From assembly GCF_004293625.1 (NCBI RefSeq), contig NZ_CP033040.1, forward strand, positions 1,116,001 through 1,180,000: 64,000 nt of DNA, read 5' to 3'. Below, piece by piece: positions 5,303 to 63,524 of this stretch. Made by a program: the position numbers and the translations under genes. The notes below the pieces were generated by a model. It did no database searches and was not told where the DNA came from. It saw only the letters and a list, made by a program, of their open reading frames with translations. Each line of letters begins with the position of its first letter. Within the stretch, counting starts at the first letter, position 1. The DNA comes from Thiomicrorhabdus indica. GTDB lineage: Bacteria > Pseudomonadota > Gammaproteobacteria > Thiomicrospirales > Thiomicrospiraceae.

Positions 5303-5312
5303 ACCGGCCGGT
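5303..5312. repeat. Iterated palindrome ACCGGCCGGT, copy 1
   Basis: Exact copy in the nuoN 3' region. With copy 2 it forms a 12-bp perfect stem (5301-5312 with 5321-5332) around an 8-nt loop. Confidence 0.95.
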
Positions 5313-5320
5313 AACATTCC

Positions 5321-5330
5321 ACCGGCCGGT
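5321..5330. repeat. Iterated palindrome ACCGGCCGGT, copy 2
   Basis: Exact intergenic copy, 18 bp after copy 1. There is no T-run after the hairpin, so it is less terminator-like than the 12356/12377 pair. Confidence 0.95.
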
Positions 5331-5347
5331 AAAAAATGAGGTATTAT

Positions 5348-5383
5348 AAAGCCCGCACAAAAAATCGATGTGCGGGCTTTTTT
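5348..5383 (+). terminator. Rho-independent terminator after nuoN
   Basis: Perfect 11-bp stem AAAGCCCGCAC (5348-5358) with GTGCGGGCTTT (5370-5380), an A-rich loop and a run of T to 5383. It follows the nuo operon. Confidence 0.93.
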
Positions 5384-5420
5384 ATGAATTAAAGATATAG
5401 CAAGGACACGAGGGTTGATT

Positions 5421-5735
5421 ATGGATCAAAACAGCGCTGTATGGTTATTGTTAGTAACCGCACTCGTTTTAGCAAATTTACCTTTTATTATGGTAAATCG
5501 TCTGTTTTTGATGATTAAAGTTGAAAGTAAATCCTTTATCGTCAATATGATTGAATTTCTGACGTACTTTGGAATAACGGGAATTTTTGCCTATCTTCTT
5601 GAAAAAAAGGTGATGGGGCATGTTGCACCGCAAGGCTGGGAGTTTTACACCATTGTGTTCTTCATGTTTATGATTTTCGCTTTTCCTGGTTTTATTTATC
5701 GTTACAACCTTAGAAACTATCTTCATAAAGCTTAA
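5421..5735 (+). CDS. DUF2818 family inner-membrane protein
   Basis: About 104 aa with three predicted membrane segments (about residues 5-27, 38-60 and 75-95) and a short basic C-terminus (YRYNLRNYLHKA). The overall look and the place directly after nuoN match DUF2818, which is commonly found behind complex I operons. No biochemical role is known to me. The ATG at 5421 is preferred over the in-frame TTG at 5415 because CGAGGG lies at good spacing from the ATG and would abut the TTG. It is separated from nuoN by a strong terminator. Confidence 0.8.
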   Translation: MDQNSAVWLLLVTALVLANLPFIMVNRLFLMIKVESKSFIVNMIEFLTYFGITGIFAYLLEKKVMGHVAPQGWEFYTIVFFMFMIFAFPGFIYRYNLRNYLHKA

Positions 5736-5766
5736 TTTGACTTAAGCTTAGCCTATTACATACTTT

Positions 5767-5776
5767 ACCGGCCGGT
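5767..5776. repeat. Iterated palindrome ACCGGCCGGT, copy 3
   Basis: Exact intergenic copy between the DUF2818 gene and the MITE-like element that starts 9 bp further on. Confidence 0.95.
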
Positions 5777-6191: not shown

Positions 6192-9182
6192 ATGCGTTTT
6201 TTTCAATCTCCATCTCTATTTCTAGACTTCTTTGACGAAGGTTTTTCGATTCAAAGCCAGTCACAATCCAGTACAGCTGAGCAAACAACGGTTTTGTTCT
6301 GTGAACTGCAAGATGTCAATTTGCAGCAAGGTTTACTGTTTGATGATTTTGTTATCAATACCCAAACTTTTCAAACTCGTATTCAAGGCATTCGTCATAC
6401 GCAAGCGTTAGAGTTTTTTGAGGCTATTCGTGGGGCATGTCATCAATGGCTTATTGGTAAAGCGGTTAAGGTTTCTATGGGTGGAGAAACCCTAGAAGAT
6501 GTAATTGAAAAGCTTTTTAGTCAGAACATTTATCTGTCACAGTCCGCCATTCGAGATTTTTTGCAAAAATATTCTGAATTGGGGCAAGTTTTATCCCATA
6601 TCTTTTTTGATGACACTTTGATTGAGAATTCCGAATTTACGAGTAAAACAGGAATTGATTCAAAAAGCTTAGATGTGTTTTTAAGCTTGTATGATCCGAA
6701 TTCCGAAAAGGTAAAACAACATAATGATGCGTTTGTGCAAGCTGAAATTGAGCGAGTTAAACCTTGGTTGGCGCATCTTGAAGCATATCCGCTAACGGAT
6801 GAGCAGCTGACTGCAGTGGTAACGGAAGAAGACCGCAACTTATTAATTGCATCGGCTGGTTCCGGTAAGTCTTCCACGTTAGTTGCGAAAGTGGTTTATC
6901 TGCTTAAAAATGAATTAGCACAGCCGAACGAAATTGCTTTATTGGCTTATAACGATGAAGCCAGCCAAAGTATTCGTAACCGATTAATGAATGTTCTAGG
7001 TGACGCAATCGCACAACAAATTCAAATTTCTACGTTTCATGCGTTTGGTTTGAATGTCATTTTTGAGAAGCAGGGATTCAAACCTCGGATTGTTGATTTT
7101 GCACAAGGCGGAAACCGTGCCTTAATCGAGTTTTTTGATGCGACCATTCGGCAGAAACTTGCCGAAGATGATGTGTTCAAACAAGACTGGTTCGAGTATT
7201 TGGCTCTATACAAAAAGCCTCGTCCACCATTGTTTAGCATTGATTCCATGCATAAATATTATGATTATTTACTGCAAATAGGTGCGACTTATCACCAGAG
7301 CAAAGTGGGTCGAAAGACTGTCCGGCGACCTGTATTCGAATGTTTGAATGGTCTATTGGTTACGTCTCTTGAAGCTCAGATGATTGCCAATTGGTTAATT
7401 CTTCACCAAATCGAGTTCCAATACCTTAAACCGGTTGAATTGCCTGGAGATCAAAAGGCGCTCCCGGCAGACTTCTATTATCCTACGATTGGTGTCTATC
7501 ATGATCATTTTGCGATAAATACGGAAGGGTACCGGCCAGTATTTCTTGAAAACTATGATGACTTTTTAACACGAAAACAAAATATCGTTAAAACTTATGA
7601 TATTGCCCATTTTGTCACCACGAGTGCTGACTTTGAAAGTGGTGAAATCTTTAATAAGTTAGACAATTTTTTTATTGATAAAGGTCTTGAACCCAAATGG
7701 ATGCCATTAGAGGCAATCGAGCCTAAACTTTATGCAAATTATTCGCCGTTTGACGATTTGACGATTTTTTGCAGTTTTTTGCAGCATTTCAAAGCCAATG
7801 GTGCCAGTTTAGCCGATTTAGATGCCAAGATAGAGTGGGTGGCCAGCTCCATTCATTCAGGGTTGTTTCCTGCAGAATCTTCTGCTGCCGAAATGGATAA
7901 AGAGCCGTTAGAACAAACGGAGTTTAACCCTGTCGCAGATTTTGATTTGTTGCGTACCAATGCTTTTTTAAAAATGTTCAAGCCCTTGTATGCCGCTTAT
8001 CAAGAAAATCTAAATCAACAGAACGCAATTGATTTTAACGACCAGATCAATCAAGCCTGTTTAGTTTTGGAGTCGAGAGAATGGCGTCATCAGTTTAAAT
8101 ACCTTTTAGTCGATGAATTTCAAGATATCTCTCAAGATCGGAAACGTTTATTAAAAGCATTATTGGATCAAAAACCTGAGTGTAGACTTTTTGCAGTCGG
8201 TGACGATTGGCAATCGATTTATCGCTTTTCGGGTGCAGATATTGACATTATGACGCATTTTGAACGTCATTTTGGTGTGACAAAAACGAATTATTTAACC
8301 CGAACATTTCGTTGTTATCAGGGAATTGCTGATGTCGCAGCTAACTTTGTTCAACGAAACCCTGAACAATTGACAAAAACAGTTCAGGCACATGCGAACA
8401 TTCAAGCCGATCAAGTTCATATTGAAGCTTATAGCAGTCAGTCTGAACACAATGAAAAATTATTAGCACTTTTAGACAAACTCAATGCACTTGCTTATAA
8501 GCATCAGCAGGTTTTGAGTGTCTATTTATTAGCGCGATATCATCGTCTGAAGCCAAATAATTTGTCGTACTTGCAACAGCGGTGTTTGGGGTTAAAGATT
8601 GACTTCAAAACCATTCATGCATCAAAAGGCTTGGAAGCGGATTATGTCATTATGTTGAACTTGGAGTCAGGCACTTATGGCTTCCCGAGCACCTTATCCG
8701 ATGACGCGATTTTGAATTTGGTCATTCCGAAAATTGAGCATTTTGAGCATGCTGAGGAGCGTCGCCTGTTTTATGTCGCCTTGACCCGTGCAAAACGCGG
8801 CGTATTTTTGCTTTCCAGTTCGGTGGATACGTCGAGTTTTGTGGCTGATATTATAGAAATGGAGGGGGTAAAATCCAGTGATTCTTTGCGCAAACTGGAT
8901 CAATGCCCCAAATGTGGTGAAGGGAAAATGTTAGAGCGATATGGTCAATATGGTATTTTCTGGGGATGTAATCTTTATCCGGCGTGTGATCATACCGAGA
9001 AATGCTTTTGTCCAGAGTGTGATGTGGGTACTTTGGTGGCAAAGGAATCTGAGCATGGAAAGTTTTATGGGTGTTCCACCTATCCCGAATGTGACTATAT
9101 TCATGAAAGGGGAAAGCAAAAGCTTAAATATTATTCAGCTGCAACATCACCGGCCGGTCGTCAATTTAAACGGATAAAATAG
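6192..9182 (+). CDS. HelD-like superfamily 1 DNA helicase with two C-terminal zinc ribbons
   Basis: A 996-aa UvrD/Rep-type helicase, closest in motif wording to DNA helicase IV. An N-terminal region of unknown fold precedes the Walker A motif ASAGSGKS (about residue 220). Between about residues 385 and 480 lies an inserted segment reading like a PD-(D/E)XK nuclease-type domain (SLEAQMIANWL, then PADFYYP). The Walker B motif LLVDEFQD is near residue 638, followed by GDDWQSIYRFSGAD and TIHASKGLEADYV. From residue 904 there are two topoisomerase-type four-cysteine zinc ribbons. Iterated-palindrome copy 4 encodes Ser-Pro-Ala-Gly near the end. No clear ribosome-binding site precedes the ATG. Likely a DNA repair or recombination translocase. 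Confidence 0.82.
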   Translation: MRFFQSPSLFLDFFDEGFSIQSQSQSSTAEQTTVLFCELQDVNLQQGLLFDDFVINTQTFQTRIQGIRHTQALEFFEAIRGACHQWLIGKAVKVSMGGETLEDVIEKLFSQNIYLSQSAIRDFLQKYSELGQVLSHIFFDDTLIENSEFTSKTGIDSKSLDVFLSLYDPNSEKVKQHNDAFVQAEIERVKPWLAHLEAYPLTDEQLTAVVTEEDRNLLIASAGSGKSSTLVAKVVYLLKNELAQPNEIALLAYNDEASQSIRNRLMNVLGDAIAQQIQISTFHAFGLNVIFEKQGFKPRIVDFAQGGNRALIEFFDATIRQKLAEDDVFKQDWFEYLALYKKPRPPLFSIDSMHKYYDYLLQIGATYHQSKVGRKTVRRPVFECLNGLLVTSLEAQMIANWLILHQIEFQYLKPVELPGDQKALPADFYYPTIGVYHDHFAINTEGYRPVFLENYDDFLTRKQNIVKTYDIAHFVTTSADFESGEIFNKLDNFFIDKGLEPKWMPLEAIEPKLYANYSPFDDLTIFCSFLQHFKANGASLADLDAKIEWVASSIHSGLFPAESSAAEMDKEPLEQTEFNPVADFDLLRTNAFLKMFKPLYAAYQENLNQQNAIDFNDQINQACLVLESREWRHQFKYLLVDEFQDISQDRKRLLKALLDQKPECRLFAVGDDWQSIYRFSGADIDIMTHFERHFGVTKTNYLTRTFRCYQGIADVAANFVQRNPEQLTKTVQAHANIQADQVHIEAYSSQSEHNEKLLALLDKLNALAYKHQQVLSVYLLARYHRLKPNNLSYLQQRCLGLKIDFKTIHASKGLEADYVIMLNLESGTYGFPSTLSDDAILNLVIPKIEHFEHAEERRLFYVALTRAKRGVFLLSSSVDTSSFVADIIEMEGVKSSDSLRKLDQCPKCGEGKMLERYGQYGIFWGCNLYPACDHTEKCFCPECDVGTLVAKESEHGKFYGCSTYPECDYIHERGKQKLKYYSAATSPAGRQFKRIK
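9149..9158. repeat. Iterated palindrome, copy 4 (in helicase C-terminus)
   Basis: Exact ACCGGCCGGT, read as Pro-Ala-Gly in the unconstrained tail after the zinc ribbons. Confidence 0.95.
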
Positions 9183-11808: not shown

Positions 11809-12324
11809 ATGAGAATTTTAGGAATTGAATTAACAGGAAATGATGCAGTTGTTGCGCTTTTGGAACAAGACAACGGTATGTTTTACATCCCAGATTTTCG
11901 GGCAAGAAAAGTCAATTGTCGTAATCCGGATGATCAGGAGCAATTACAGTATTTTCAAAAAAGCTTTGCGCAATTAGTTCAAGATTACAAAGTCGATGAA
12001 ATTGTCATTCGTGGTCGCATGAAAAAAGGAAGATTTGCCGGCGGAGCGAACGGCTTTAAATTAGAAGGTGCGCTTCAGGTTTTACCCGGTGTTAAAGTGA
12101 CGGTTATGATTCCAGCAACCCAGTCTGCGATTTTAAAGCGTTTTCCAATGAGTATCCCGTTTGCGGAAACAGGCATGAAAAAGTTTCAGCAACAAGCATT
12201 TGAAGTGGCTTATGCTCAGTTGTCCGATCCAAAAGGGTTAGCTGAAGCCGCACGCCAAAAAGAGATTGCCAACCGTAAACAAAAGCGTGACGAGCGTGTG
12301 GAGCTTGAAGAACAAGAAGATTAG
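11809..12324 (+). CDS. DUF3010 family protein
   Basis: A 171-aa soluble protein beginning MRILGIELTGNDAVVALLE, a pattern resembling the N-terminal strand of RNase-H-like/ASKHA folds. The centre has IVIRGRMKKGRFAGGANGFK and the C-terminal third is a charged helix (ARQKEIANRKQKRDERVELE). I recognise it as DUF3010, of unknown function. It follows glnS by 9 bp and is followed by a terminator built from two iterated palindromes. Confidence 0.72.
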   Translation: MRILGIELTGNDAVVALLEQDNGMFYIPDFRARKVNCRNPDDQEQLQYFQKSFAQLVQDYKVDEIVIRGRMKKGRFAGGANGFKLEGALQVLPGVKVTVMIPATQSAILKRFPMSIPFAETGMKKFQQQAFEVAYAQLSDPKGLAEAARQKEIANRKQKRDERVELEEQED

Positions 12325-12355: not shown

Positions 12356-12365
12356 ACCGGCCGGT
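12356..12365. repeat. Iterated palindrome ACCGGCCGGT, copy 5
   Basis: Exact copy forming the left arm of the terminator stem. Confidence 0.95.
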
Positions 12366-12376: not shown

Positions 12377-12386
12377 ACCGGCCGGT
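12377..12386. repeat. Iterated palindrome ACCGGCCGGT, copy 6
   Basis: Exact copy forming the right arm of the terminator stem. Confidence 0.95.
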
Positions 12387-15073: not shown

Positions 15074-15577
15074 TTAATCATGGGTTTTTAAAATACTTTC
15101 CCTGGCAAGTTGATCAGCGAGTTGATTGCCAGAGTTTTTGAAGTGAGCTTTCACCCAATAAAAGTTTACCGGCCGGTGAAAGCTTAATTCGTGAAGCTTT
15201 TGCCAAAGTTCAGCATAGGCGACATCGTTTCCGTTTTTACTTTGCCAGTTATTTCCTTCCCACAAAGTATATTTATCAAATAGCCCTTCAAGCAGGATTT
15301 GTGCATCGGTAAACAGCTTGACCGCTTGTTTAGGATGATTTTTTTGAAACCATCTTAAAGCGTTAATAGCCGCAATAAGTTCCATTTCAAGGCTGGATTG
15401 CGACATTTGCACTCCATTTAAGGTTTTAACCAGTTTTTCTTTTTCGTAAACCGCCACACCCCAGCCACCTAAATGATGCTGTTTAAAATAGGCGCCATCT
15501 GTATAGATTTCAAAATTTGACTGTAGGTCGAATACAGGCTGGTGAAAAGAGTAGGCTAAGTGCTGTTTGACATTCAC
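15074..15577 (-). CDS. Ribonuclease HI family protein
   Basis: A 167-aa protein expected to cleave RNA in RNA-DNA hybrids. All four acidic active-site residues are visible: D27 in YTDGA, E66 in LEMELIAA, D91 in LFTDAQ and D155 in NQLADQLA. The general-base histidine is H145 in WVKAH. About 20 extra residues precede the RNase H core compared with E. coli RnhA, so it may be a paralogue. Iterated-palindrome copy 7 encodes Arg-Pro-Val (FHRPVNF). It is preceded by a GNAT gene on the same strand, 9 bp away. Confidence 0.85.
   Translation of the reverse strand: MNVKQHLAYSFHQPVFDLQSNFEIYTDGAYFKQHHLGGWGVAVYEKEKLVKTLNGVQMSQSSLEMELIAAINALRWFQKNHPKQAVKLFTDAQILLEGLFDKYTLWEGNNWQSKNGNDVAYAELWQKLHELSFHRPVNFYWVKAHFKNSGNQLADQLARESILKTHD
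15168..15177. repeat. Iterated palindrome, copy 7 (in RNase HI gene)
   Basis: Exact ACCGGCCGGT, read as Arg-Pro-Val before the WVKAH motif. Confidence 0.95.
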
Positions 15578-16132: not shown

Positions 16133-16567
16133 TTATCCGTATTTTAAAAGCAGTGTTTTTAAACAGGCTAAATAGGCTTGTTCATCGGGTTCAGCCTGAT
16201 TTTTTTGTGCTTGCCACATCATTTCACCTAGGCAGTCCATCATGGCGTGTTCGGTTGCCATGACATCGCCGATTTTTTCACCCAGTTGTTGATAAATTAA
16301 TTTGATACCGGCCGGTCGATCCATCACCACTTGTTCTTGAAGCCCTAAATGCATTCCCATATGTAAAAACGGATTAGTCTCGCCGTCTTCTGGTTTGTAT
16401 TCATTTCCAAGCTTTTCGTTCTCAAGCATTTTGTGGTATTCGGGATGCATTTCAATGACGCGAGCCACCATTTGTTCCATCGGATCCATTGGCATATTCA
16501 TTCGGGCTTTTTGCCAACAATCGACATAAAACTGACGTAATTTATCTCTTTCAGAAGTATAAAGCAT
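16133..16567 (-). CDS. DUF1841 family protein
   Basis: A 144-aa soluble, methionine-rich helical protein (YTSERDKLRQFYVDCWQKAR near the start, then HPEYHKMLEN and NPFLHMGMHLGLQEQ). These stretches match DUF1841, a small proteobacterial family of unknown role. Iterated-palindrome copy 8 encodes Pro-Ala-Gly within DRPAGIK. The gene lies downstream of nth on the same strand with an 86-bp gap. Confidence 0.75.
   Translation of the reverse strand: MLYTSERDKLRQFYVDCWQKARMNMPMDPMEQMVARVIEMHPEYHKMLENEKLGNEYKPEDGETNPFLHMGMHLGLQEQVVMDRPAGIKLIYQQLGEKIGDVMATEHAMMDCLGEMMWQAQKNQAEPDEQAYLACLKTLLLKYG
16307..16316. repeat. Iterated palindrome, copy 8 (in DUF1841 gene)
   Basis: Exact ACCGGCCGGT, read as Pro-Ala-Gly. 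Confidence 0.95.
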
Positions 16568-17298: not shown

Positions 17299-18051
17299 CT
17301 ATTTCACTGCGACTTTTATGCCCAATTGATTTTGTTGCTTCGATGCTTTTTTCTGGTCAATGGCGTTTTTCAAGGCAATGAGTAGCCCCAAACCAATAAA
17401 TGCACCAGGAGGCAGAATCGCCAATAAGACACCTTGATAGTCGCCACTAAAGACGATTTTCCAGTCGCGAGCCATGTCGCCAAACATTAGGTGAGCTTGG
17501 TCAAACAAAGTGCCGGCACCAATGATTTCTCGCAAAGCACCCAAAAGAACCAGAACAAATAAAAACCCCAGCCCCATAAAAAAACCATCCATTAAGGCTT
17601 TGTCCACGGTATTTTTGGAGGCATAGGCTTCTGCACGGCCTAGGATTGCACAGTTGGTGACAATCAATGGAATAAAAATCCCCAAAATTCCGTGTAAAGT
17701 GTGAAAGTATGCATTCATCAATAAATCAATAGCGGTCACTGCAGTCGCAATAATGGCAATGTAGACGGGAATACGGATTTCGCGTGAGACGTGGTTGCGA
17801 ATCAGCGATACCAGCACGTTGGAAATCATTAATACTGCCAAAGTGGCTAACCCAAGCCCTAGACCGTTGATCGTATTATTGGAAACTGCCAAAAGGGGAC
17901 ATAACCCCAGAAGCGCTACCAATGCTTGGTTATTAGTCCATAGACCATTTTTGAATATTGATTTATAGTCAGCTAGTTTCTGCTGCCAAACATTTTTTTC
18001 TGATGTCTCTAAGGCATCAGATGAAATGGTATTTTGACTGGCTTCACTCAT
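17299..18051 (-). CDS. rnfE: Rnf electron transport complex subunit E
   Basis: A 250-aa inner-membrane subunit of the ion-translocating ferredoxin:NAD+ oxidoreductase. It has six predicted helices. The [16 protein letters not shown] and [16 protein letters not shown] stretches, the latter with the membrane cysteine (NCAI) that pairs with NCAV in RnfA, identify it. An extra N-terminal soluble leader of about 25 aa precedes the usual start ([20 protein letters not shown]). It overlaps the rnfG stop by 8 bp, so coupled translation is likely. Confidence 0.94.
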
Positions 18052-37478: not shown

Positions 37479-38810
<1,332 letters not shown>

Positions 38811-52775: not shown

Positions 52776-52819
52776 AAAGGTTTATTTTTTGTAAATTGAA
52801 TTTTGAAATTTTGGCAAAG

Positions 52820-52843
52820 AAAAAGCACCTGAATCGGTGCTTT
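52820..52843 (-). terminator. Intrinsic terminator after the DUF3037 gene
   Basis: Stem AAAGCACC (52822-52829) with GGTGCTTT (52836-52843). On the minus strand it is followed by a T-rich run, so it would stop the HipA-like/DUF3037 transcript before hsdR. Confidence 0.75.
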
Positions 52844-52845
52844 GA

Positions 52846-53679
52846 TTATGATTCGACTTGTTCTAAAAACCTGCCAATCGTTTGGGTGTCTTGGCTGTTT
52901 GCAACGGTGACATTCAATCTTTCAAATTGATCCAGTGCAAAATTCAGTGCTGTTTTTAGTTCTGGCTTTGCACTCTCTTCATAAACAATTAGGTGTTTTT
53001 GTGGTTCAAGCAATTGAGCACTCATCAAACCATTTAAATGTGCTATCCAATTCAACGCGTGCTCTGTCACTTTATTAGCCTGATCATAACCGGCAAAACT
53101 CAATGGTTTGATACTGGTTAAATGTTCATTTTCATAAAACGGCAAGGTCGCTTTTACGCCGAATTCTTTCTGCTCTAAACGTTTTTCTTTGTAAATTTTA
53201 TCTAGGTGACGAGCAGCAAGTACCGTTGTCTTAAAATTTCTCGCTAGTTCTGCATCATGATTTTGGCTTTTGTACTTTTCACTTTCGAAGTTCACCAAGT
53301 CTTGATTAAGCGTTTCTAATGCCTGTTGTATGGTTTGCCCGTCAGCTAAAAATTTCACTCGTACTGTTGAATACTGCAACAAACCATCTTTAGGCTTTAC
53401 CACCTCATTAAACAAGGCTTGTTTATTGTTTGATTGCGGCATAAATTCTTGAACACGCAACAATTCATCTTCAGCCAATCTCAGCACATCTTTAAACAGT
53501 TCTTTGCCTTTCAGAGTTGGGAAAAAAGCATGAACTCTTTTTGTTTTTCGCACATCATTTAACACAAACGCCAACTCACCGGTTTGCACGCACTGACCTA
53601 CCACCCCGATATTGACAAACTCTTCACGGCGAGCATAAGGAATAAAGCGAATTAAACTGTATTTAAGCGTTTTTTTCAT
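52846..53679 (-). CDS. DUF3037 family protein
   Basis: About 277 aa. The start MKKTLKYSLIRFIPYARREE with NIGVVGQCVQTGELAF is typical of DUF3037, commonly encoded next to HipA-like kinases. The ATG 53679 is chosen over an upstream in-frame start because it overlaps the stop of the HipA-like gene as ATGA, indicating translational coupling. The rest is helical and charged without a recognised catalytic motif. A damaged second copy of its 5' end lies at 55063-55175. Confidence 0.75.
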   Translation of the reverse strand: MKKTLKYSLIRFIPYARREEFVNIGVVGQCVQTGELAFVLNDVRKTKRVHAFFPTLKGKELFKDVLRLAEDELLRVQEFMPQSNNKQALFNEVVKPKDGLLQYSTVRVKFLADGQTIQQALETLNQDLVNFESEKYKSQNHDAELARNFKTTVLAARHLDKIYKEKRLEQKEFGVKATLPFYENEHLTSIKPLSFAGYDQANKVTEHALNWIAHLNGLMSAQLLEPQKHLIVYEESAKPELKTALNFALDQFERLNVTVANSQDTQTIGRFLEQVES

Positions 53680-54386
53680 GACATTTGACTCCACAAAGCA
53701 CCATTCGCTCTGTCTAACAAGCCGCGACGAATTTGATCCAAGTTTAACGAAAACGTTTCTGCTTCTAACCACTCATTTGGGATAGAAGACACAATATCAT
53801 CCCACTTTTGCATCACATTTAAAAGCCGAGATTGATAGCCATCTCTCAGCAAGCCATCCTGATAAACAACTTCACCGGCCGGTCGAAAAACATGATGATC
53901 AGCAAAACCGAACTCTGGCTGACAAATAAGGTTATGGTCAATCACATATAAACCTTGTGACAAGGACCAAAGCAAGTTCACATTGCCACCTTGCTCAGTC
54001 AAATTGCGGTCATGATTCTGCACCCACAAATCAAAAACAAACAGATCACGTTTAACCTCTTCATCCACAAGACTTTCATTCGTCAAAGAATATTCCGAGC
54101 AATCAGCCACCAAACGCGATGCAAAGGCAAACTCTTCTTTTGGCTTAGACTATGCAAATGGATAAGGTGAACTTAACGCTTGATCCAAAAAAGCAACATC
54201 AAAAGCAGGCACATTTAAACCAAATTCTTTTGCCAAGCAAGCGCCCAGCAACTCTTTAACCAACTCGTCAAACGTCATGCCACCATCAAACTTCACCACA
54301 TACTCAACACCATTACCATCCAGACAACGCAGCGGCTTAGTGGCTCCTTGGTGCATTTGAGAAACGATTTCTTCAATAAAAATCAA
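53676..54386 (-). pseudogene. HipA-like kinase gene interrupted by one amber codon
   Basis: One continuous frame from TTG 54386 (AGAGGT ribosome-binding site) to the TGA at 53676, broken only by TAG at 54150-54152. Upstream part (78 codons): ATKPLRCLDGNGVEYVVKF, resembling a kinase ATP-binding lobe. Downstream part: FVFDLWVQNHDRNL and LYVIDHNL, the catalytic loop and metal-binding DH of the HipA-like family that pairs with DUF3037. About 12 codons between TAG and the next in-frame ATG/GTG keep good sequence, so the lesion looks recent. Readthrough or a suppressor tRNA are alternatives. Palindrome copy 20 is read Arg-Pro-Ala-Gly. Confidence 0.82.
53874..53883. repeat. Iterated palindrome, copy 20 (in HipA-like pseudogene)
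   Basis: Exact ACCGGCCGGT, read as Pro-Ala-Gly. It is the only exact copy within the restriction island. Confidence 0.95.
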
Positions 54387-54469
54387 TAGTGACCTCTGTT
54401 ATTTCAATTGAATGGTGAAAGATTAATTTTACTCTGACACTTTTATTCACTTTTATTCGAAACCTAATA

Positions 54470-54733
54470 TTATTCACCGTAATGTGTTTTCGCTCGAACG
54501 ACTAACACAACACATCTATCATTTTCTATTCGATAGACAATGCGGTCTTGGAAGCTGAGGCGAACAGAATAATAGCCTTTTAAATCTCCAATTAAGGGTT
54601 TACCTGTTTCCGGTGAAACCGAAATTTTATTTCGTAAAATGTCTTTGAGTTTGTTTTTTAACTTAGGTGTCAGCTTGGCGACATCTTTCTGTGCTTGTTT
54701 TGTGAACTCAATCCGGTAGTAATCGCAGTTCAC
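54470..54733 (-). CDS. RelE/YoeB-type toxin
   Basis: An 87-aa RelE/ParE-superfamily protein (FTKQAQKDVAKLTPKLKNKL; GDLKGYYSVRLSFQDRIVYR; VVLVVRAKTHYGE), most likely a ribosome-dependent mRNA endonuclease. The GTG start overlaps the antitoxin stop as GTGA, a four-base overlap. Its antitoxin is Phd/YefM-like, a common partner. It lies inside the type I restriction locus between hsdS and hsdR. Confidence 0.88.
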   Translation of the reverse strand: MNCDYYRIEFTKQAQKDVAKLTPKLKNKLKDILRNKISVSPETGKPLIGDLKGYYSVRLSFQDRIVYRIENDRCVVLVVRAKTHYGE

Positions 54734-54990
54734 AAAGGCTCTCCAAACACCTCTTCAAAACTCGCCACATCCCCAGAATCCGCTTCAATAACAGACTGAT
54801 TAAATTTTTGTTTAAAATCAGGTTGCGATAAAAGATGTAACGTCTCTTGCAGACTTTCATAATCAGCCTCAGACATAATGACGGCATTGCCAGATTTATG
54901 CTGTACCTGAAAAATTTCATGTTGTTGATTGGTTTGCTTAATGATTTCAAAAAATGACTTTCTTGCTTCTGTTGCTGTCATCGTAGCCAT
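54730..54990 (-). CDS. Phd/YefM-type antitoxin
   Basis: An 86-aa DNA-binding antitoxin. The N-terminal Phd/YefM fold shows TATEARKSFFEIIKQ and GNAVIMSEADYESLQETLHL. The acidic C-terminal tail (VIEADSGDVASFEEVFGEPL) would wrap the toxin. Both ATG 54990 and ATG 54981 are possible starts; GGA upstream favours neither strongly. Operator-like GTGTACC repeats lie just upstream. Translationally coupled to the toxin. Confidence 0.87.
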   Translation of the reverse strand: MATMTATEARKSFFEIIKQTNQQHEIFQVQHKSGNAVIMSEADYESLQETLHLLSQPDFKQKFNQSVIEADSGDVASFEEVFGEPL

Positions 54991-55012
54991 AATTCTAATT
55001 CCATTCTTTATT

Positions 55013-55036
55013 GTGTACCGAATAGTGTACCACTAT
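55013..55036 (-). promoter_or_regulatory. Probable antitoxin operator
   Basis: GTGTACC occurs twice 12 bp apart (55013-55019 and 55025-55031), and the second lies in the inverted repeat ATAGTG-TAC-CACTAT (55022-55036). Paired GTAC-centred boxes near the promoter are usual for Phd/YefM autoregulation. It is 23 bp upstream of the antitoxin ATG. Confidence 0.6.
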
Positions 55037-55062
55037 TTTGCAAAGGACCCAATTAACATAAA

Positions 55063-55175
55063 GCCAATTCACCGGTTTGCACGCACTGGCCTACCACCGA
55101 TATTGACAACTCTTCACGGCGAACATGAGGAATAAAGCGAATTAAGCTGTATTTAAGCGTTTTTTCATGACATTT
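55063..55175 (-). pseudogene. Decayed fragment of a second DUF3037 gene (5' end)
   Basis: About 113 bp matching 53571-53688, the first 36 codons of the intact DUF3037 gene including the CATGACATTT start region. It has several substitutions and at least three small deletions that break the frame. It has the same orientation as the intact gene. The two copies form a direct repeat flanking the HipA-like gene and the toxin-antitoxin pair. Confidence 0.85.
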
Positions 55176-55278
55176 TCTCGCTCCTACATCTTGTTTAAGA
55201 GCGGAACTTGTCACACTGCAAGTTTGCATTCCCAGGTAGAACGTGGGAACGAGTTAAATAAATTGTTAACTCATTTAT

Positions 55279-56550
55279 CTAAACAAACATCTTCTGCAAT
55301 AAGCCTTTTTTAAAGGCTTGGGTTTGGTTTAGAGTGGTTTGGGTTTGTTGGATTTTTTGGTCAATTGCGGTTAGGAAATCGGCGATTTTTTGTTGTTCTT
55401 CTATACAAGGTAGTTTTATTTTAATCTCACCAACTTGTTGAAGGTTTAAGTTGGGCTGTGCTCCAACAGATAAAACTTGGCGAATATATTTTGATATTTC
55501 AGATAAATTTAATGATAGATGAATGAAAGGAACATGGCGTTTATCGGCAAGTCGAATTATCGCGATAGCTTGATTAGTGTTAGCTGGTAAGTCATTAGAA
55601 GTAATAATCGCAGTTCGACCTAAAGTCCCTGCAATCGAAAACACAATATCATTTTCCATCAACCTTGAACGCTTCATAGCGTCATCACATTTGGCTGAAA
55701 TCTTTGCTGTTTTACTATTATCAACTCTGTGATTAGCCAAACTTTCAGCTTTAATAAAATTAATTCCCTCAACTTGAAAGATATGCCCAATACTTGTCGG
55801 TGTTGTTCCTTTGGTAATTAAAGACGTCACTGAATTTAGCTTTACAAAACCCCACTCAGGGTAGTCGTTGCCTTGGTCGTCTTTGAAGCGGGTTTGCTGG
55901 GTGAAGAGTTGTTGCATGACGCCTTTTTTGTAGTCGGTGAGCAGACGGTGTTTTTCGGTGAGCTGTTCGATTTTTTGATCGACCGAAGAAAGGAAGTCCG
56001 CGATTTTTTGTTGTTCTTCAATTTTTGGTATAAAGACGGGCAAGGACTTTACTGTATACAGCGATAAGTTTTTAATAGTTGAACCAGTTAGTTGTCCATT
56101 AAAAAACTTTCTTACATGAGTAGTTTGAATGTAGTTTGAAACAAATCTTTTTTCTGATTTTTCAGGGTCAACATTTATATAACAAGCACTTTTGCCGAGG
56201 ACAATTTTTTCACCTCTAAAAAACGCCATATTTCCAATAGTGCCGTTTATTGACAGCAATATCGTATTGTTATGTAACTCTCTTTGATGCTTTTGGAACT
56301 CGGCCTCGTTTACCCTTTTAGTTTTTTCATCAATTGCAATTCTGCCATTAATTAGATTATTTCCATTCACAAAAAAATAATCACCCTGTTCATCATAAAT
56401 GGGGGTACTGTGAATACCATCGCTGATCTTAGTCGTTAACAAACCTAGCTTAACTCTTTGCAAAGAGTCATTAAACTCAGGAAATCTCAGTTCTGGCTCC
56501 GCTACGCTACGCGCAGTCTTCGATTCAGGCACACATTTCAAATCACTCAT
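55279..56550 (-). CDS. hsdS: Type I restriction-modification specificity subunit
   Basis: A 423-aa DNA-recognition subunit with two target recognition domains. The central conserved helix (EEQQKIADFLSSVDQKIEQL, then YKKGVMQQLF) and the C-terminal one (EEQQKIADFLTAIDQKIQQT, then FKKGLLQKMF) are near-duplicates, as expected for the two-fold architecture. The halves before each define the bipartite target, which cannot be read from sequence. The start overlaps the hsdM stop by one base (TAATG). Confidence 0.94.
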   Translation of the reverse strand: MSDLKCVPESKTARSVAEPELRFPEFNDSLQRVKLGLLTTKISDGIHSTPIYDEQGDYFFVNGNNLINGRIAIDEKTKRVNEAEFQKHQRELHNNTILLSINGTIGNMAFFRGEKIVLGKSACYINVDPEKSEKRFVSNYIQTTHVRKFFNGQLTGSTIKNLSLYTVKSLPVFIPKIEEQQKIADFLSSVDQKIEQLTEKHRLLTDYKKGVMQQLFTQQTRFKDDQGNDYPEWGFVKLNSVTSLITKGTTPTSIGHIFQVEGINFIKAESLANHRVDNSKTAKISAKCDDAMKRSRLMENDIVFSIAGTLGRTAIITSNDLPANTNQAIAIIRLADKRHVPFIHLSLNLSEISKYIRQVLSVGAQPNLNLQQVGEIKIKLPCIEEQQKIADFLTAIDQKIQQTQTTLNQTQAFKKGLLQKMFV

Positions 56551-58118
56551 TAAAACGGCTCCTGAATGCCTAATTGTTGGCAGAAGTCAGCAATAACGGC
56601 ATCGGTTTGTTTCATTTCTAAATCAATGGTTTTGATTTGCTCGGTGACGGCTTGCAGGTCAATCGGTTCTTCTTCCTCAAAGGTATCGACATAGCGCGGA
56701 ATATTCAGGTTCCAGTCGTTTTCTTTGACTTCGCTTAGTGGTGCGACATGACTGTATTTTTCGATTTCCTCGCGCTTGGAGTAGGTGTTGATAATCTTGT
56801 CGATATGCTCTGGCAAAAGGCGGTTTTGGTTTTTGCCTTTTTCAAAGTCATTCGAGGCATCAATAAACAGTATGTCATCAGGATTCGTACGGCATTTTTT
56901 AAACACCAATACGCAGGTTGGAATAGAGGTGCCATAAAAGATATTGGCAGGCAAACCAATGACTGCATCGAGATAGTTGCGGTCTTCAATCAGGTATTGG
57001 CGAATATGGCCTTCTGCGGCACCACGGAATAAGACGCCGTGCGGCAGTACAACAGCCATGACGCCGTTATCGTCCAAGTGGTGAACCATGTGCTGTACAA
57101 ACGCAAAATCCGCTTTGGTTTTTGGTGCCAGTTTGCCGTATTGCGAAAAACGGTCATCGCTTAAAAACAGTGGATTGGCTGACCAGTGAGCAGAAAATGG
57201 TGGATTGGCGACGATGGCTTCAAAACGTTTATCGGAGTGTTGTGGATGCTCCAAGGTATCGTCTTGCTTAATGTCGAACTGTTTGTAGTTCACATTATGC
57301 AGAATCATATTCATACGAGCCAAGTTGTAGGTGGTACGGTTCAGCTCTTGACCATAGAAATGCCCGACTTCTTTGACTTCTTTCGCCACGCGCAACAGCA
57401 AGGAACCCGAACCACAGGTTGGATCGTAAACGGATTTTAGGTGCGTTTTGCCTTCGGTAACAATACGGCTCAAGATGGTCGCGGCTTGAGCGGGGGTATA
57501 AAATTCGCCGGCTTTTTTACCGGCCCCTGATGCAAATTGTGCAATCAGATATTCGTAAGAATCGCCCAATACATCGGCATCACGGTCCTCTAACATGAAA
57601 TCAATTTTATTCAAACGCGATAGGATTTTGGCAACCAGTTCATTCTTTTGCTTTTCGGTTTTACCCAGCTTGGTCGAGTTGAGATCAAGGTCTTCAAACA
57701 GGTGATCAAAATCGTCTTCGGATTCCGTGCCCATGGTGGAGTGTTCAATATTACGCAGAATGGTTTGCAGATCACCCAAGATAAAGTTATCGGCGGTTTC
57801 GCCTTCTTTGGATGAACCTTTTCTGGCAATGGTCGAAAAGAGTTCTGACGGTTTAAGCATATAACCGAGTTTTTCAATCGCTTCTTCAGCCACCGCTTCA
57901 ACCACTTCTTGGCCTTCTTCAGTGGTTTCATCCACCGATGCATAATCCAAATCTTCATCCAGACTATTCGCGTAGAGGCAGAGCTTCTCAGAAAGGTATT
58001 TGTAGAAGATAAACCCAAGAATGTAATCACGGAACTCATCGGCATTCATTTTGCCGCGTAGATCGTTGGCAATTCCCCATAGCTGCTGTTCTAACAGCTT
58101 CTTCATTTCTTCTGACAT
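56550..58118 (-). CDS. hsdM: Type I restriction-modification methyltransferase subunit
   Basis: A 522-aa N6-adenine methyltransferase. An N-terminal helical HsdM_N domain (LWGIANDLRGKMNADEFRDY) precedes the SAM-binding DPTCGSGSLLLRV and the catalytic NPPF motif (AIVANPPFSAHW). A C-terminal helical region (IDLEMKQTDAVIADFCQQLG) follows. It is first of the hsdM-hsdS pair and appears intact. Confidence 0.95.
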   Translation of the reverse strand: MSEEMKKLLEQQLWGIANDLRGKMNADEFRDYILGFIFYKYLSEKLCLYANSLDEDLDYASVDETTEEGQEVVEAVAEEAIEKLGYMLKPSELFSTIARKGSSKEGETADNFILGDLQTILRNIEHSTMGTESEDDFDHLFEDLDLNSTKLGKTEKQKNELVAKILSRLNKIDFMLEDRDADVLGDSYEYLIAQFASGAGKKAGEFYTPAQAATILSRIVTEGKTHLKSVYDPTCGSGSLLLRVAKEVKEVGHFYGQELNRTTYNLARMNMILHNVNYKQFDIKQDDTLEHPQHSDKRFEAIVANPPFSAHWSANPLFLSDDRFSQYGKLAPKTKADFAFVQHMVHHLDDNGVMAVVLPHGVLFRGAAEGHIRQYLIEDRNYLDAVIGLPANIFYGTSIPTCVLVFKKCRTNPDDILFIDASNDFEKGKNQNRLLPEHIDKIINTYSKREEIEKYSHVAPLSEVKENDWNLNIPRYVDTFEEEEPIDLQAVTEQIKTIDLEMKQTDAVIADFCQQLGIQEPF

Positions 58119-58426: not shown

Positions 58427-59065
58427 TTAATCAATCGCTCCAAAGTCTTTCATTTTTTCTGCAAGTGTTTGTGCGAGCAGTCTGTAGCCGTTTTCGTTAA
58501 AGTGCACATAGTCGGATTTCATGGATGGGCGTAGAAGGAGGCTTGGAATAATTTCATCTTCCAGTGGAATTTTGAATTCGTCGGCAAGTGTGTCGAAAAT
58601 TTCATGTGAACCGGCAAAGAGTTTTTTGGGTGGCACACCAACCAAGAGCACGTCAATATTTCTGCTTTTGGCTTCTAATATCATTAATCTGAGGTTTTCA
58701 AGAGTTTTACCGGCCGGTATATTTCGTAAAAAGTCGTTACCACCTTCCATGAGGATGACTAATTTGGGCGAGTGTTCATTTAATACTTCTGCAAATCGTT
58801 GTAAGCCTTCAGCGGTTGTTTCTCCTGAAATGCCTGCATTGATGACCGGCCGGTTAAGTATTTGACTTAAAACTGCAGGATAGCTGTGTGTTTTCTTAAC
58901 ACCGTAACCAGCGGTTAGACTGTCACCAAAGGCAAGAATTTTGTCGTCAGCTTCCAAAGGTTGGAGTTCAGGGTTGCTACAGGCGCTCAGTAATAAACCC
59001 AGCACTAAAACTAAGACTAGATAGCTTTTGTGCTGCAAACTTTTTATGTTTTGAAAATATGACAT
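58427..59065 (-). CDS. GDSL-type esterase/lysophospholipase lipoprotein (TesA-like)
   Basis: A 212-aa SGNH hydrolase. A signal segment with lipobox LLSAC (Cys29) suggests a lipoprotein. Block I is AFGDSLTAGYGV with Ser49, GGND marks block III, and the catalytic Asp185/His188 are in SDYVHFN. The family hydrolyses acyl-CoA, lysophospholipids or aryl esters. Two iterated palindromes are read as Arg-Pro-Val (72-74) and Pro-Ala-Gly (117-119). It is a single gene. Confidence 0.88.
   Translation of the reverse strand: MSYFQNIKSLQHKSYLVLVLVLGLLLSACSNPELQPLEADDKILAFGDSLTAGYGVKKTHSYPAVLSQILNRPVINAGISGETTAEGLQRFAEVLNEHSPKLVILMEGGNDFLRNIPAGKTLENLRLMILEAKSRNIDVLLVGVPPKKLFAGSHEIFDTLADEFKIPLEDEIIPSLLLRPSMKSDYVHFNENGYRLLAQTLAEKMKDFGAID
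58709..58718. repeat. Iterated palindrome, copy 21 (in esterase gene)
   Basis: Exact ACCGGCCGGT, read as Pro-Ala-Gly in NIPAGKT. Confidence 0.95.
58845..58854. repeat. Iterated palindrome, copy 22 (in esterase gene)
   Basis: Exact ACCGGCCGGT, read as Arg-Pro-Val in LNRPVIN, 136 bp from copy 21. Confidence 0.95.
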
Positions 59066-60600: not shown

Positions 60601-60623
60601 GATTTGAAACTTCCTGCTATAAA

Positions 60624-61067
60624 TTAGTAGCTTAGGTTTTGGAAGTTTTTATTCAGAAGTCCTGCGGCGACATTTGCAGGTTTAGCAACCTGAATACCAT
60701 CAATTAGATCTTCAGGTGTTTTCCCCGCGTTTGGCAGATAAAGTGGACAAACTTCCACTTTTGCGCCCATTCCCATGATTTTTTTCAACATCATGCTTGG
60801 AGAGACATTTTTTGGCTTCAATTTTGGTGTTTCAGTTGTTTTTAGCGCTAAATCACCGGCCGGTCCACATAGAGTCATGTGAACTTTCTTACCATGCTTT
60901 TTCAGTGTTTGTGTTGAAAGTACCATTGCCATTAGCTGTGTTTGGTGGCTGTCAGAAGTCACCACAACGTTTAATCCTTCAGCCATATTGTCTGCATAAG
61001 CTTGATTCATTCCCAATGCACCAACCAACATAGAACCCAAAACTGCTTTTTTCAAAATTGCTTTCAT
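60624..61067 (-). CDS. Secreted DsrE-like protein
   Basis: A 147-aa protein with an N-terminal signal peptide (MKAILKKAVLGSMLVGALG; cleavage after AYA near residue 25). The mature part follows the DsrE/DsrF fold (LNVVVTSDSHQTQLMAMVLS; GMGAKVEVCPLYLPNAG). It has two cysteines (LCGPAG and EVCPLY). DsrE-like proteins handle sulfur in sulfur oxidisers, and the SQR-like gene upstream supports that. Iterated-palindrome copy 23 is read Gly-Pro-Ala-Gly. Confidence 0.78.
   Translation of the reverse strand: MKAILKKAVLGSMLVGALGMNQAYADNMAEGLNVVVTSDSHQTQLMAMVLSTQTLKKHGKKVHMTLCGPAGDLALKTTETPKLKPKNVSPSMMLKKIMGMGAKVEVCPLYLPNAGKTPEDLIDGIQVAKPANVAAGLLNKNFQNLSY
60855..60864. repeat. Iterated palindrome, copy 23 (in DsrE-like gene)
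   Basis: Exact ACCGGCCGGT, read as Pro-Ala-Gly next to a cysteine (CGPAGD). Confidence 0.95.
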
Positions 61068-61333
61068 TTTAATTCCTTACAAATAATATTGTATTAAAGT
61101 GTTTATTTAAGTGACGAATAATACTCTATAAGAAAAAGTTATGAATGTAGAGGGTAATTTTATTATGAGAATGGATAAATAAAATTTATACCCTGTGGTG
61201 AAGGTATGTTTGGGATGATTTTAATAAGATGAAAATGTTGGTGTGTTGCACAATGCCGATGACTTAAGAATAAAGATTGCCACTAAGTGAATCGCATTGT
61301 GCAATGGCTGGCTTTGACTGTTTTGGGAGGGTG

Positions 61334-62470
61334 CTAGCGATATTGACGAAGATACCAGCCTTCAAAAAAACGTTTTGCATAATGCAATAAACGACAAGGA
61401 GGCAAGAGGGTGGTACTTTTTTCTGTTCGTTTAATTAGAATTCCATGCTTAAGCGTGTCCACAATACAAATTAATTCATGGAAAATTTCTTCTAATTCAG
61501 AGTCCTGCGCACTTGGATTTTTTAACAATCGAACCGCATTAATGGCAGCGACTTTGGCTTGAATATCTGCGGCATGTGCTTGTTTTGCTTGCCAGTCAGG
61601 GCCAGGAAATGAGCCTGCATCGCCTGCAACATAGACGTGTTCAAATCCTTCGACTCTACCTTGTAAATCGGCTTTAATCATGCCGCCTTCAGAAATCGGG
61701 AACTCTGTATTTGGCAACCATGCTGGCCCTGTCATTCCCGGCATAAATAGCGTTAGGTCGGATTGAAATTCTTCGCCTTCGGTTATTACTGAGTTTTCAG
61801 TAAATCCTTTCATTTTATGGCCGAGTTTGGTTTGGATTCCCTTTTTAGTCATCATTTCAGTTAGTTTTTCAGGAACTTTTGCTCCCAAACGTTTTCCCGG
61901 TTCTGGTGCAGGGTTGAAGAATACTAAATCGAATTTATTACGACGGCCTTGTTTACGTAGCAAGTTATCGATACCAAACAGAAATTCAAACATAGGGCCA
62001 CCACGCATGGCAGAAGGCTCTTTTGGATTACCGCCAAAGCCGATGGCAATGGTTCCACCGTCCATGGATTGCAATTTTTCTCGAATTTTTTCACCGGCGG
62101 CAATCCCTTCACAAGGCGTGATGATGTGCTCAATACCTGGTAATTTTTTAATAAAACGGCCTCCACTGGCAATGATTAAGGCATCATTTTCAACCATACC
62201 GGAGGAGGTTTGAACTTTACGACCTCCATCGCTGACGCCTTCAACTTGTCCAGCAATGAAATTGACTTTCATTTTTTTAAAGAAATTCTTCAGGTCGACG
62301 CGTAAATCATCTGCTTTACGGAGACCCGAAGGGAGCCAAATCAAACTCGGTAGATAGACAAGCTCATCTTTGGGCGCAATCACAGTGATTTCAACACTAT
62401 GCGATTCTTTACGAAGGTTTTTTATGGCGGTCAACGCTGCAAACCCAGCGCCTAGAACAGTGACTTTCAT
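61334..62470 (-). CDS. SQR-like FAD-dependent oxidoreductase
   Basis: A 378-aa two-dinucleotide-fold flavoprotein. FAD-binding GAGFAALTAIKNLRKES at the N-terminus, a second GFGGNPKEPS and VYVAGDAGSFPGP near 290 match the NDH-2/sulfide:quinone oxidoreductase superfamily. The three cysteines (about 120, 333 and 357) include one in CIVDTLKHG, an SQR-like motif. The C-terminal HYAKRFFEGWYLRQYR is amphipathic and probably membrane-associating. It likely oxidises a sulfur species and reduces quinone; the exact SQR type is not certain. Confidence 0.8.
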   Translation of the reverse strand: MKVTVLGAGFAALTAIKNLRKESHSVEITVIAPKDELVYLPSLIWLPSGLRKADDLRVDLKNFFKKMKVNFIAGQVEGVSDGGRKVQTSSGMVENDALIIASGGRFIKKLPGIEHIITPCEGIAAGEKIREKLQSMDGGTIAIGFGGNPKEPSAMRGGPMFEFLFGIDNLLRKQGRRNKFDLVFFNPAPEPGKRLGAKVPEKLTEMMTKKGIQTKLGHKMKGFTENSVITEGEEFQSDLTLFMPGMTGPAWLPNTEFPISEGGMIKADLQGRVEGFEHVYVAGDAGSFPGPDWQAKQAHAADIQAKVAAINAVRLLKNPSAQDSELEEIFHELICIVDTLKHGILIKRTEKSTTLLPPCRLLHYAKRFFEGWYLRQYR

Positions 62471-62903
62471 GATGAATCCTTTTATAAAAGTTAGTGATGC
62501 AAGTATAAGTGTTATCTATTTAAAAGCCAGCTTAGCACCCACAAACTTGCAATGAAGTTTTTTATTGCGGCAGATAAAATTGTCTTTAGTTTAGGGAACC
62601 TATTATTGAATCAGAGGTTTCTTACAGAGGTTTTTTAGGTTTTGAATGACCTTGAAGCTTTGGACTCTCAAAATTCATGCGTGACATTGTCAGCAATTTT
62701 TCGGATGCATGTCTTAACTGTAATTAACTTCCTAGGCCTTTTTATTGAGCTTTCAATTGTTTATTGGTTTTTTAGTGGCATTGCTGCAAATTGCCTATGA
62801 AGCCGTCTAGAATAATGCAGATTCTGCTTTTCTAGTTATTCAGAATCGACTAGTTAGGCGATGAAGAGTAATTTTGCCAAAAAGTTATGATTAAGAGGGC
62901 GCG
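62471..62903. other. Intergenic region between SQR-like gene and cobU
   Basis: A 433-bp gap between divergent genes. It holds a decayed MITE end (62591-62624). A two-stem inverted repeat, CTAGAA (62807-62812) with TTCTAG (62830-62835) around GCAG/CTGC, is also present. I looked for a cobalamin riboswitch before cobU and saw no B12-box consensus. No gene is supported here. Confidence 0.6.
62591..62624. repeat. Decayed copy of the MITE end hairpin
   Basis: TTAGGGAACCT followed by a short loop and AATCAGAGGTTTCTTA. It matches the bare hairpin at 27235 with several substitutions, so it is an older relic. Confidence 0.6.
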
Positions 62904-63524
62904 TTGGTCAAAGTGGTTACACAAATAAGAGATATTCAATTGCAGGCTGAGATGAAACACTTAGTTCTAGGCGGTGCTCGTTCTGGAAAAAGTGCATTTG
63001 CAGAGTCAATGTTGTTAGATTGGCAAAAAATTTCAGGTGGTCGTGTTGTTTATATTGCGACCTCCAATCATAGAAATGATGCTGAGATGTTAAAGCGTGT
63101 CGAGCATCATAAATCTTACCGGCCGGTGGATTGGGAAACGATTGAAGAGCCTATTTATTTGGCGGAAGCGTTAAAAAGTGTCTGCGTAGACCTCTCGCAA
63201 GAACAAATGATACATAACGAATCTATTTTGGATGCTCCTGTTGCGGTCATTGTCGATTGTTTAACCTTATGGATGCTCAATATCATTGAAGCCGATTGTC
63301 GAAAACAGCAAACAGAGCAGTTGTTGCAAACATTAAAACACTTGAGATGCCCTGTGGTTTTGGTGAGTAATGAAGTGGGATTGGGCGTTGTGCCAATGGG
63401 AAAACTCAGTCGTGAATTTGTCGATGAGATTGGACGGCTTCATCAAGCGATTGCAGCGCAAGTGGAGGCTGTAACTTTCGTGACAGCGGGTTTACCGATG
63501 TCTTTAAAATCCCCTTTGAAGTAA
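62904..63524 (+). CDS. cobU: Bifunctional adenosylcobinamide kinase/guanylyltransferase
   Basis: About 190-206 aa enzyme phosphorylating adenosylcobinamide and attaching GMP in cobalamin nucleotide-loop assembly. The P-loop is GGARSGKSAFAE, and DCLTLWMLN and VSNEVGLGVVPMGKLSREF are family-specific. The TTG at 62904 has GAGGG upstream, but the ATG at 62952 matches the usual N-terminus (MKHLVLGGARSGKS) and may be the real start. Palindrome copy 24 is read Arg-Pro-Val (SYRPVDW). It precedes cobT by 14 bp. Confidence 0.92.
   Translation: MVKVVTQIRDIQLQAEMKHLVLGGARSGKSAFAESMLLDWQKISGGRVVYIATSNHRNDAEMLKRVEHHKSYRPVDWETIEEPIYLAEALKSVCVDLSQEQMIHNESILDAPVAVIVDCLTLWMLNIIEADCRKQQTEQLLQTLKHLRCPVVLVSNEVGLGVVPMGKLSREFVDEIGRLHQAIAAQVEAVTFVTAGLPMSLKSPLK
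63118..63127. repeat. Iterated palindrome, copy 24 (in cobU)
   Basis: Exact ACCGGCCGGT, read as Arg-Pro-Val. Confidence 0.95.

Follow-up and report, generated by a model that had tools for sequence, protein, structure and literature searches.

A palindrome repeated across the window

The stretch of DNA analysed here (the window) comprises 64 kb of the genome of Thiomicrorhabdus indica, positions 1,116,001 to 1,180,000 of a single contig of 2,829,883 bp. Among its genes is metG, whose product shares 91% identity with MetG of Thiomicrorhabdus marina and 77% with that of a Hydrogenovibrio. The subject of this report is a palindrome of 10 bp, ACCGGCCGGT, present in the window in 24 exact copies; it is a genuine genome-wide and species-specific repeat, and one dialect within a family-wide set of such words. 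The original prediction, made from the letters of the window, had listed 24 copies, 23 of which begin where it placed them; the remaining one starts at 46788, not at 46798. The three near-copies with one mismatch that it had noticed (at 7531, 22516 and 44270) were also recovered, giving 27 places in the window with at most one mismatch.

Several copies lie beside genes. A first close pair, spaced 18 bp apart (5303–5312 and 5321–5330), is 3' of an open reading frame (ORF) ending at 5286, and a second, spaced 21 bp apart (12356–12365 and 12377–12386, the latter followed by a T-rich run), is 3' of the ORF at 11809–12324. Single copies are located between the ORFs at 5415–5735 and 6192–9182 (5767–5776), just 5' of the mutL ORF at 28574–30565 (28554–28563), about 9 bp 3' of hflX (33650–33659, a region that aligns poorly with relatives) and 3' of the adenylosuccinate synthetase gene at 37491–38810 (38898–38907).

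The other copies are inside genes. They occupy the last codons of the helicase-IV-like gene at 6192–9182 (9149–9158), an RNase-H-domain gene at 15074–15577 (15168–15177), a DUF1841 gene at 16133–16567 (16307–16316), a gene at 18044–18688 (18380–18389), the 3' part of a 4Fe-4S gene at 22181–22807 (22229–22238), mutL itself (29722–29731), hflX at 32329–33642 (33306–33315) and a tRNA-synt_His gene at 36263–37429, near its 3' end (37375–37384). Two genes contain two copies each: a pseudouridine-synthase gene at 46668–47363 (46708–46717 and 46788–46797) and a GDSL-lipase-like gene at 58427–59065 (58709–58718 and 58845–58854). The remaining copies are in two ORFs without a Pfam match, at 48837–49358 (48867–48876) and 60624–61067 (60855–60864), in a HipA-like ORF at 53676–54113 (53874–53883) and in a CobU gene at 62904–63524 (63118–63127).

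Abundance, consensus and coding frame

Dinucleotide shuffles of the window contained a mean of 0.02 copies of ACCGGCCGGT, and none of 100 shuffles reached 24. The whole genome contains 1025 copies, against a single occurrence of the control word (ACCGGCCGGT reversed but not complemented); together, the shuffles and the control rule out chance or base composition as the source. With up to one mismatch allowed, 1310 places are found genome-wide, i.e. 285 one-off copies beside the 1025 perfect ones, while the control yields 51 places, 50 of them one-off. Twenty evenly spaced stretches of 20 kb contain 4–11 copies each, 146 in 400 kb in total, and this even spread means that the count does not derive from a handful of repeated genes. 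The genome-wide count that the original prediction had proposed as a check therefore came out far above chance and without a repeated-gene source. These stretches and the window together form the 464-kb sample, with 170 copies, on which the following description is based. The outer A and T, assigned to the motif in the original prediction, do belong to it, yet they are the least conserved: of the 38 one-off copies in the sample, 22 deviate at position 1 or 10.

The palindrome is the core of a longer and weaker consensus, approximately AAwnTTT-ACCGGCCGGT-AAAnwTT, about 24 bp in full. Read outwards and symmetrised over both sides, the flank is AAAnwTT, with the named positions occupied as indicated in 54–61% of cases. 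The scores of the two flanking arms are uncorrelated (r = −0.001 over the 170 copies); the element is therefore symmetric on average, and a one-sided flank in this genome can be dismissed.

With ORFs of at least 90 amino acids called crudely, the density of copies is 0.98 per kb in intergenic DNA and 0.25 per kb in coding DNA. The 100 copies inside ORFs show a strong frame bias, being read as xPAG in 65 cases, RPV in 24 and TGR in 11. Neighbouring copies less than 60 bp apart are more frequent than expected (12 gaps versus 3.2); eleven close pairs have spacings of 18–34 bp, and two of these (in the stretches L095 and L103) are inverted copies of one repeat. Complementarity between the arms around a copy is not raised, with a mean of 3.74 of 12 positions versus 3.91 after shuffling, which rules out the palindrome as the general apex of longer hairpins, although sites with perfect symmetry over at least three flanking pairs are somewhat more numerous than after shuffling of the pairings (19 versus 11.6).

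Six of the 24 copies in the window could be aligned with corresponding sites in relatives, of which four were tried. The alignments run without gaps across the motif at 16307 (four relatives) and at 18380 (G013 and G014), so there substitutions separate the copy from the relatives. Gaps of 9–36 bases appear in the aligned relatives at 22229, 33306 and 38898; at 33306 four relatives are about 12 bases shorter, and at 38898 the gap is in G013. No coding copy in the window falls at the same residue as a copy in the stretch sets of seven relatives, suggesting that, within the shared stretches, the T. indica copies are mostly not converted older ones. By eye, the pair located 33 and 54 bp 3' of the ORF at 11809–12324 is close to the position of a G008 copy, at 26 bp.

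Dialects in related genomes

The family set contains 62 genomes, 32 of them from the same genus as, and including, T. indica. ACCGGCCGGT and a sister palindrome, CCAGGCCTGG, were counted in whole genomes; the remaining dialects come from fetched stretches of 12–140 kb per genome. The count in related genomes, also proposed in the original prediction, showed ACCGGCCGGT to be abundant in its host alone: each of the 61 other family genomes, 31 congeners among them, has at most 15 copies. G013 and G024 have 15 each, compared with 3 and 2 for the control word, and these may be remnants of the dialect or its first seeds.

CCAGGCCTGG, in the context TTACCAGGCCTGGTAA, is the leading word in stretches of several relatives. 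It reads ACC-A-GGCC-T-GGT where the T. indica palindrome reads ACC-GGCC-GGT. It is present in 106–856 copies in 27 of the 62 family genomes, the next highest count being 44 and the controls giving 0–2. By genus, 10 of the 32 Thiomicrorhabdus genomes are rich; three other genera contribute 7 of 11, 9 of 9 and 1 of 1 genomes, and the remaining three genera none of nine. In the whole genome of T. indica CCAGGCCTGG has no copies; the two palindromes exclude each other there, and their distribution is limited to the family. The inner words of the sister dialect, CCAGG and CCTGG, occur at half their expectation in the T. indica sample (123 versus 246 and 131 versus 247). An even draw of 369 genomes of the class included four from the family; ACCAGGCCTGGT is abundant in G035, one of these four (181 copies), and has at most five copies in any of the 365 from outside the family.

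Further dialects were recognised by k-mer work in fetched stretches of genomes poor in both palindromes: AGCAGGCCTGCT in G008 and (A/G)CAGGCCTG(T/C) in G005, G018 and G025. G035 has a mixed AsCAGGCCTGsT besides 263 copies of CCAGGCCTGG. Four genomes have dialects that are oriented and not palindromic. In G021 this is AAAACTCAACAGGCCGGGT, with 35 seed copies in 134 kb versus 1.2 expected. Three Hydrogenovibrio-type genomes share the form CCCA(A/G)CCTGGyAGATTTT: G408 has CCCAGCCTGGyAGATTTT (21 seed copies in 140 kb, 0.4 expected), and CCCAACCTGGyAGATTTT is found in G409 (18 in 140 kb, 0.8 expected) and G413 (17 in 120 kb, 0.6 expected). Each oriented dialect has its A-then-T tail on one side only, and all 14 of the 14 close neighbours (less than 80 bp apart) in these four genomes are inverted. 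The existence of oriented dialects implies that palindromy is not the essence of the repeat.

Some positions recur between genomes. In G009, G030 and G022, a peptidylprolyl-isomerase-like gene is followed on its 3' side by a long inverted repeat that is centred on CCAGGCCTGG and has A- and T-runs; the gene is the same in all three, but the stems differ. Residue 257 of the IPP transferase gene bears CCAGGCCTGG in four of seven genomes examined.

A tree was made from one gene, metG, with 33 rows: 31 of the 32 genus genomes, one Hydrogenovibrio and one Methylophaga. G019, which has 856 copies of CCAGGCCTGG, was left out; its metG match (G019:C1:1252044-1254154) is split with internal stops and may be a pseudogene or a sequencing error. 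T. indica falls in a group of eight with support of 100/100, and elsewhere on the tree dialects and absences are patchy. Absence on the tree means no dialect in the stretch examined; G002 and G004, for example, have 15 and 6 copies of CCAGGCCTGG. A hidden dialect was sought in the nearest group (G013, G014, G020, G024, G026, G031 and G011) and nothing convincing was found in 20–80 kb of each, an extent in which a sparse motif could escape. The G013 repeat TCTGCGTTTCC was rejected as a dialect, being part of a longer local repeat.

Methylases, competence genes and candidate receptors

Profile searches for the methylase families PF00145 and PF01555, the families for which genomes were searched, matched neither in T. 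indica, so the search for methyltransferases recommended in the original prediction produced no candidate there beyond a type I enzyme in the window. In the genus, PF00145 is found in 16 and PF01555 in 9 of the 32 genomes. Among the 11 genus genomes rich in a palindrome, five have neither family (G000, which is T. indica, G010, G015, G022 and G027) and six have a PF00145 match, one of them below the cut-off. The type I restriction-modification set of the window consists of hsdR (49905–52775), hsdS (55279–56550) and hsdM (56550–58118), the last encoding an N6 methylase. Within this set (49905–58118) there are also a DUF3037 ORF and the HipA-like ORF, and the copy at 53874 in the latter is the sole one between 49359 and 58426.

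The competence protein ComEC (PF03772) is encoded in 50 of 58 genomes searched, T. indica included. Of the 14 genomes among them that are rich in ACCGGCCGGT or CCAGGCCTGG, 13 have it; the exception, G006, is 82% complete. The competence genes to which the original prediction had pointed are therefore represented by ComEC, which also occurs in relatives without the motif; a ComP homologue was not found in the 24 of 32 genus genomes searched. ComEC permits uptake, but does not single it out. G031, 99% complete, has no ComEC match, and its 20-kb stretch contains no motif.

In a scan for pilins covering the T. indica sample and nine further loci of that genome, two N_methyl proteins with type IV pilin N-termini were found, at L105:13202–13741 and 19024–19827; they are candidates for the pilus or receptor set. 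Cores of known uptake sequences were also counted in samples of 26 genomes. Those of the uptake signal sequences (USS) of Pasteurellaceae, AAGTGCGGT and ACAAGCGGT, occur 0–8 times per sample (8 and 7 times in the T. indica sample, versus 2.6 expected), and the core of the neisserial DNA uptake sequence (DUS), GCCGTCTGAA, 0–1 times. Not being iterated in these samples, the known cores are rejected as the repeat. A phage origin was likewise discarded: 17 viral contigs with close ACCGGCCGGT pairs have G+C fractions of 0.52–0.73 and 2–4 copies in the stretch examined, and one contig with a CCAGGCCTGG pair has a G+C fraction of 0.68, all of which is chance-like.

Proposed interpretation as a DNA uptake sequence

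We propose, with a probability of roughly 60%, that ACCGGCCGGT is the dialect proper to T. indica of a self-recognition sequence for DNA uptake, in use across the Thiomicrorhabdus/Hydrogenovibrio family. This reading is favoured by the excess of perfect over one-off copies, the A-then-T flanks, the intergenic enrichment, the inverted pairs, the even spread, the exclusive dialects and the sporadic absence. Of the functions offered in the original prediction (protein binding, methylation, DNA uptake and segregation), uptake fits best, while its comparison with the cyanobacterial highly iterated palindrome HIP1, and with it a methylase, found no support in view of the missing PF00145 and PF01555 and the non-palindromic dialects.

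The repeat agreed with published hallmarks of USS and DUS in copy number, in the excess of perfect copies, in inverted close pairs (predicted terminators) and in having related dialects. The papers cited in this section are represented by portions of their text. In these, a strong consensus, in which perfect copies outnumber one-off ones, is given as typical of uptake sequences and a relaxed consensus as typical of ordinary protein sites, and an AT segment just 3' of the USS core is described, with As first and Ts as the last 3–4 bases (PMC1626085). Inverted pairs of DUS or USS act as terminators (PMC12616744, PMC2397512). The DUS of a family form dialects with a constant inner part, one of them made by an inserted base, and some family members have none (PMC3630211, PMC2397512).

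The Pasteurellaceae USS resembles the present repeat in its hundreds to thousands of near-perfect copies, its predominance of perfect ones, its A-to-T segment by the core, its inverted pairs and its subclade dialects (PMC1626085, PMC12616744). By eye, the extended Hin-USS, AAAGTGCGGTCAATTTT, and the oriented CCCAACCTGGyAGATTTT also have the outline GG(T/y)-n-A..TTTT in common. The T. indica repeat differs in its core, in its palindromic and two-armed dialect and in its lower density. Like the neisserial DUS, recognised by ComP, the repeat has several dialects in one family whose inner part stays constant, one of which differs by an inserted base, and there are terminator-like pairs and genomes with no dialect; it differs in that most of its dialects are palindromic, and in having a patchy distribution on the MetG tree and no match to ComP_DUS (PF16732) above the cut-off in the 24 genus genomes searched.

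From these patterns we infer uptake, a receptor, molecular drive and the loss of copies, as follows. A DNA receptor at the cell surface, probably a type IV minor pilin, would prefer double-stranded DNA that has the core and an A-then-T flank, and DNA of the same species would be taken in more often and then recombined. A copy born by mutation would spread by biased gene conversion (molecular drive). Copies would accumulate where they are tolerated: in intergenic DNA, in hairpin-like pairs and at coding spots for xPAG, RPV or TGR. After a shift in receptor specificity a lineage would adopt a new dialect, mostly at new positions, and where uptake is lost the copies would fade.

Several observations weigh against this interpretation. 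The density of one copy per 2.8 kb is about one third of that of USS and DUS, approximately one per kb (PMC1626085), and 100 of the 170 sampled copies are in ORFs, whereas most DUS are intergenic (PMC2397512). USS and DUS are not palindromic, while the T. indica dialect is perfectly so, with two equal and independent arms, which would suit a symmetric dimer equally. The dialects are patchy on the one gene tree, whereas USS and DUS dialects follow phylogeny (PMC12616744), and the seven genomes grouped with T. indica show no motif in 20–80 kb each, although two of them have the 15 copies of ACCGGCCGGT noted above. ComEC is also present in 18 of 21 congeners poor in both palindromes, five of these 21 carrying other dialects, and ComP_DUS was absent above the cut-off from the genus genomes searched, T. 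indica included. Finally, in the open-licence literature, the matches listed contain no report of natural transformation in these genera and no paper tying them to uptake sequences; judged by title, the one match for ACCGGCCGGT as text concerns metallo-base pairs and those listed for CCAGGCCTGG concern other subjects.

The symmetry of the T. indica dialect makes a chromosome-organising site the main rival: a nucleoid protein, binding as a symmetric dimer about every 3 kb, would serve to fold, pack or segregate the chromosome, its sites being maintained by selection. The palindrome with its independent A/T arms suits such a protein, as does the even spread of 4–11 copies per 20 kb, and replacement or absence in relatives could result from co-evolution of reader and site. 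Oriented dialects and inverted close pairs are unexpected of a dimer site, however, the seven relatives grouped with T. indica lack any such motif in the 20–80 kb examined, and the excess of perfect copies is unlike the relaxed consensus of protein sites (PMC1626085); we consider this explanation unlikely, though worth keeping in mind. The palindrome could also be of the HIP1 type, made by an orphan DNA methyltransferase together with methyl-directed mismatch repair, according to Elhai's model. HIP1 is likewise a GC-rich palindrome iterated genome-wide, it is replaced by alternate HIPs in single strains, and cognate methylases have been reported for HIPs (PMC4390886). As the model needs a cognate methylase, it was tested through the methylase searches: the PF00145 matches in six of the 11 palindrome-rich genus genomes (one below the cut-off) and the type I N6 methylase in the window, which makes an adenine mark possible, speak for it, but T. 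indica and four more of the 11 have neither family. Palindromy, a trait of HIPs, is shared by the T. indica and several other dialects and not by those of G021, G408, G409 and G413; overall, an origin of this kind appears improbable.

That the copies exist for the sake of hairpins, as transcription terminators or RNA elements, seems very improbable. The eleven pairs spaced at 18–34 bp, including the two that are one repeat in inverted copies, would agree with it, as would the placing of CCAGGCCTGG at the centre of long inverted repeats downstream of a gene common to three species and the slight excess of sites with at least three symmetric flanking pairs. The majority of sampled copies are inside ORFs, however, the overall arm complementarity does not exceed that of shuffled pairings, and a need for hairpins would not fix one sequence of 10 bp. 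Least credible of all is the insertion of exact units, whether as a very small mobile element or as an artefact of assembly. The copies are indeed exact and aligned relatives are 9–36 bases shorter at some sites, but the ungapped alignments at 16307 and 18380 contradict insertion, and the strong coding frame bias and the recurrence of dialects in many other genomes also argue against it.

Implications and other repeats

The reason for the existence of uptake sequences and the way in which their dialects change are long-standing questions. In the portions of the literature examined, uptake sequences are named in Pasteurellaceae and Neisseriaceae alone (PMC1626085, PMC12616744, PMC2397512, PMC3630211). 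We think it slightly better than an even bet that the sulfur oxidisers of the Thiomicrorhabdus/Hydrogenovibrio family are a third bacterial group, unreported in the searches made, that uses such sequences for recognition of its own DNA. The dialects would then alternate between a palindromic form with two arms and an oriented form with one, the receptor would be a pilin other than ComP, and changes of a self-recognition code could be read over some 60 genomes. The pattern resembles the watermarks in DNA that allow a few other bacteria to identify DNA from their own kind prior to uptake, here apparently in a sulfur-oxidiser-type bacterium. A third family with several dialects, complete genomes among those that carry them, and with one lineage that has its own dialect, none being seen in its neighbours, would allow comparisons that trace the receptor through co-variation and test dialects as species barriers. 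A HIP-like palindrome can, moreover, belong to a set with non-palindromic members.

Some repeats of other kinds were encountered in the stretches examined. The longer local repeat around TCTGCGTTTCC has 5–7 copies in the G013 stretches L142–L144 and is possibly integron-like, not of the uptake type. In a stretch of G028 (L178), GGGCAACCACAGG is repeated about six times in 12 kb, possibly as a tandem or CRISPR-like array. Four small genomes of the genus, G012, G017, G023 and G029, have an overrepresentation of runs of eight G or C (L167, L168, L173 and L179).

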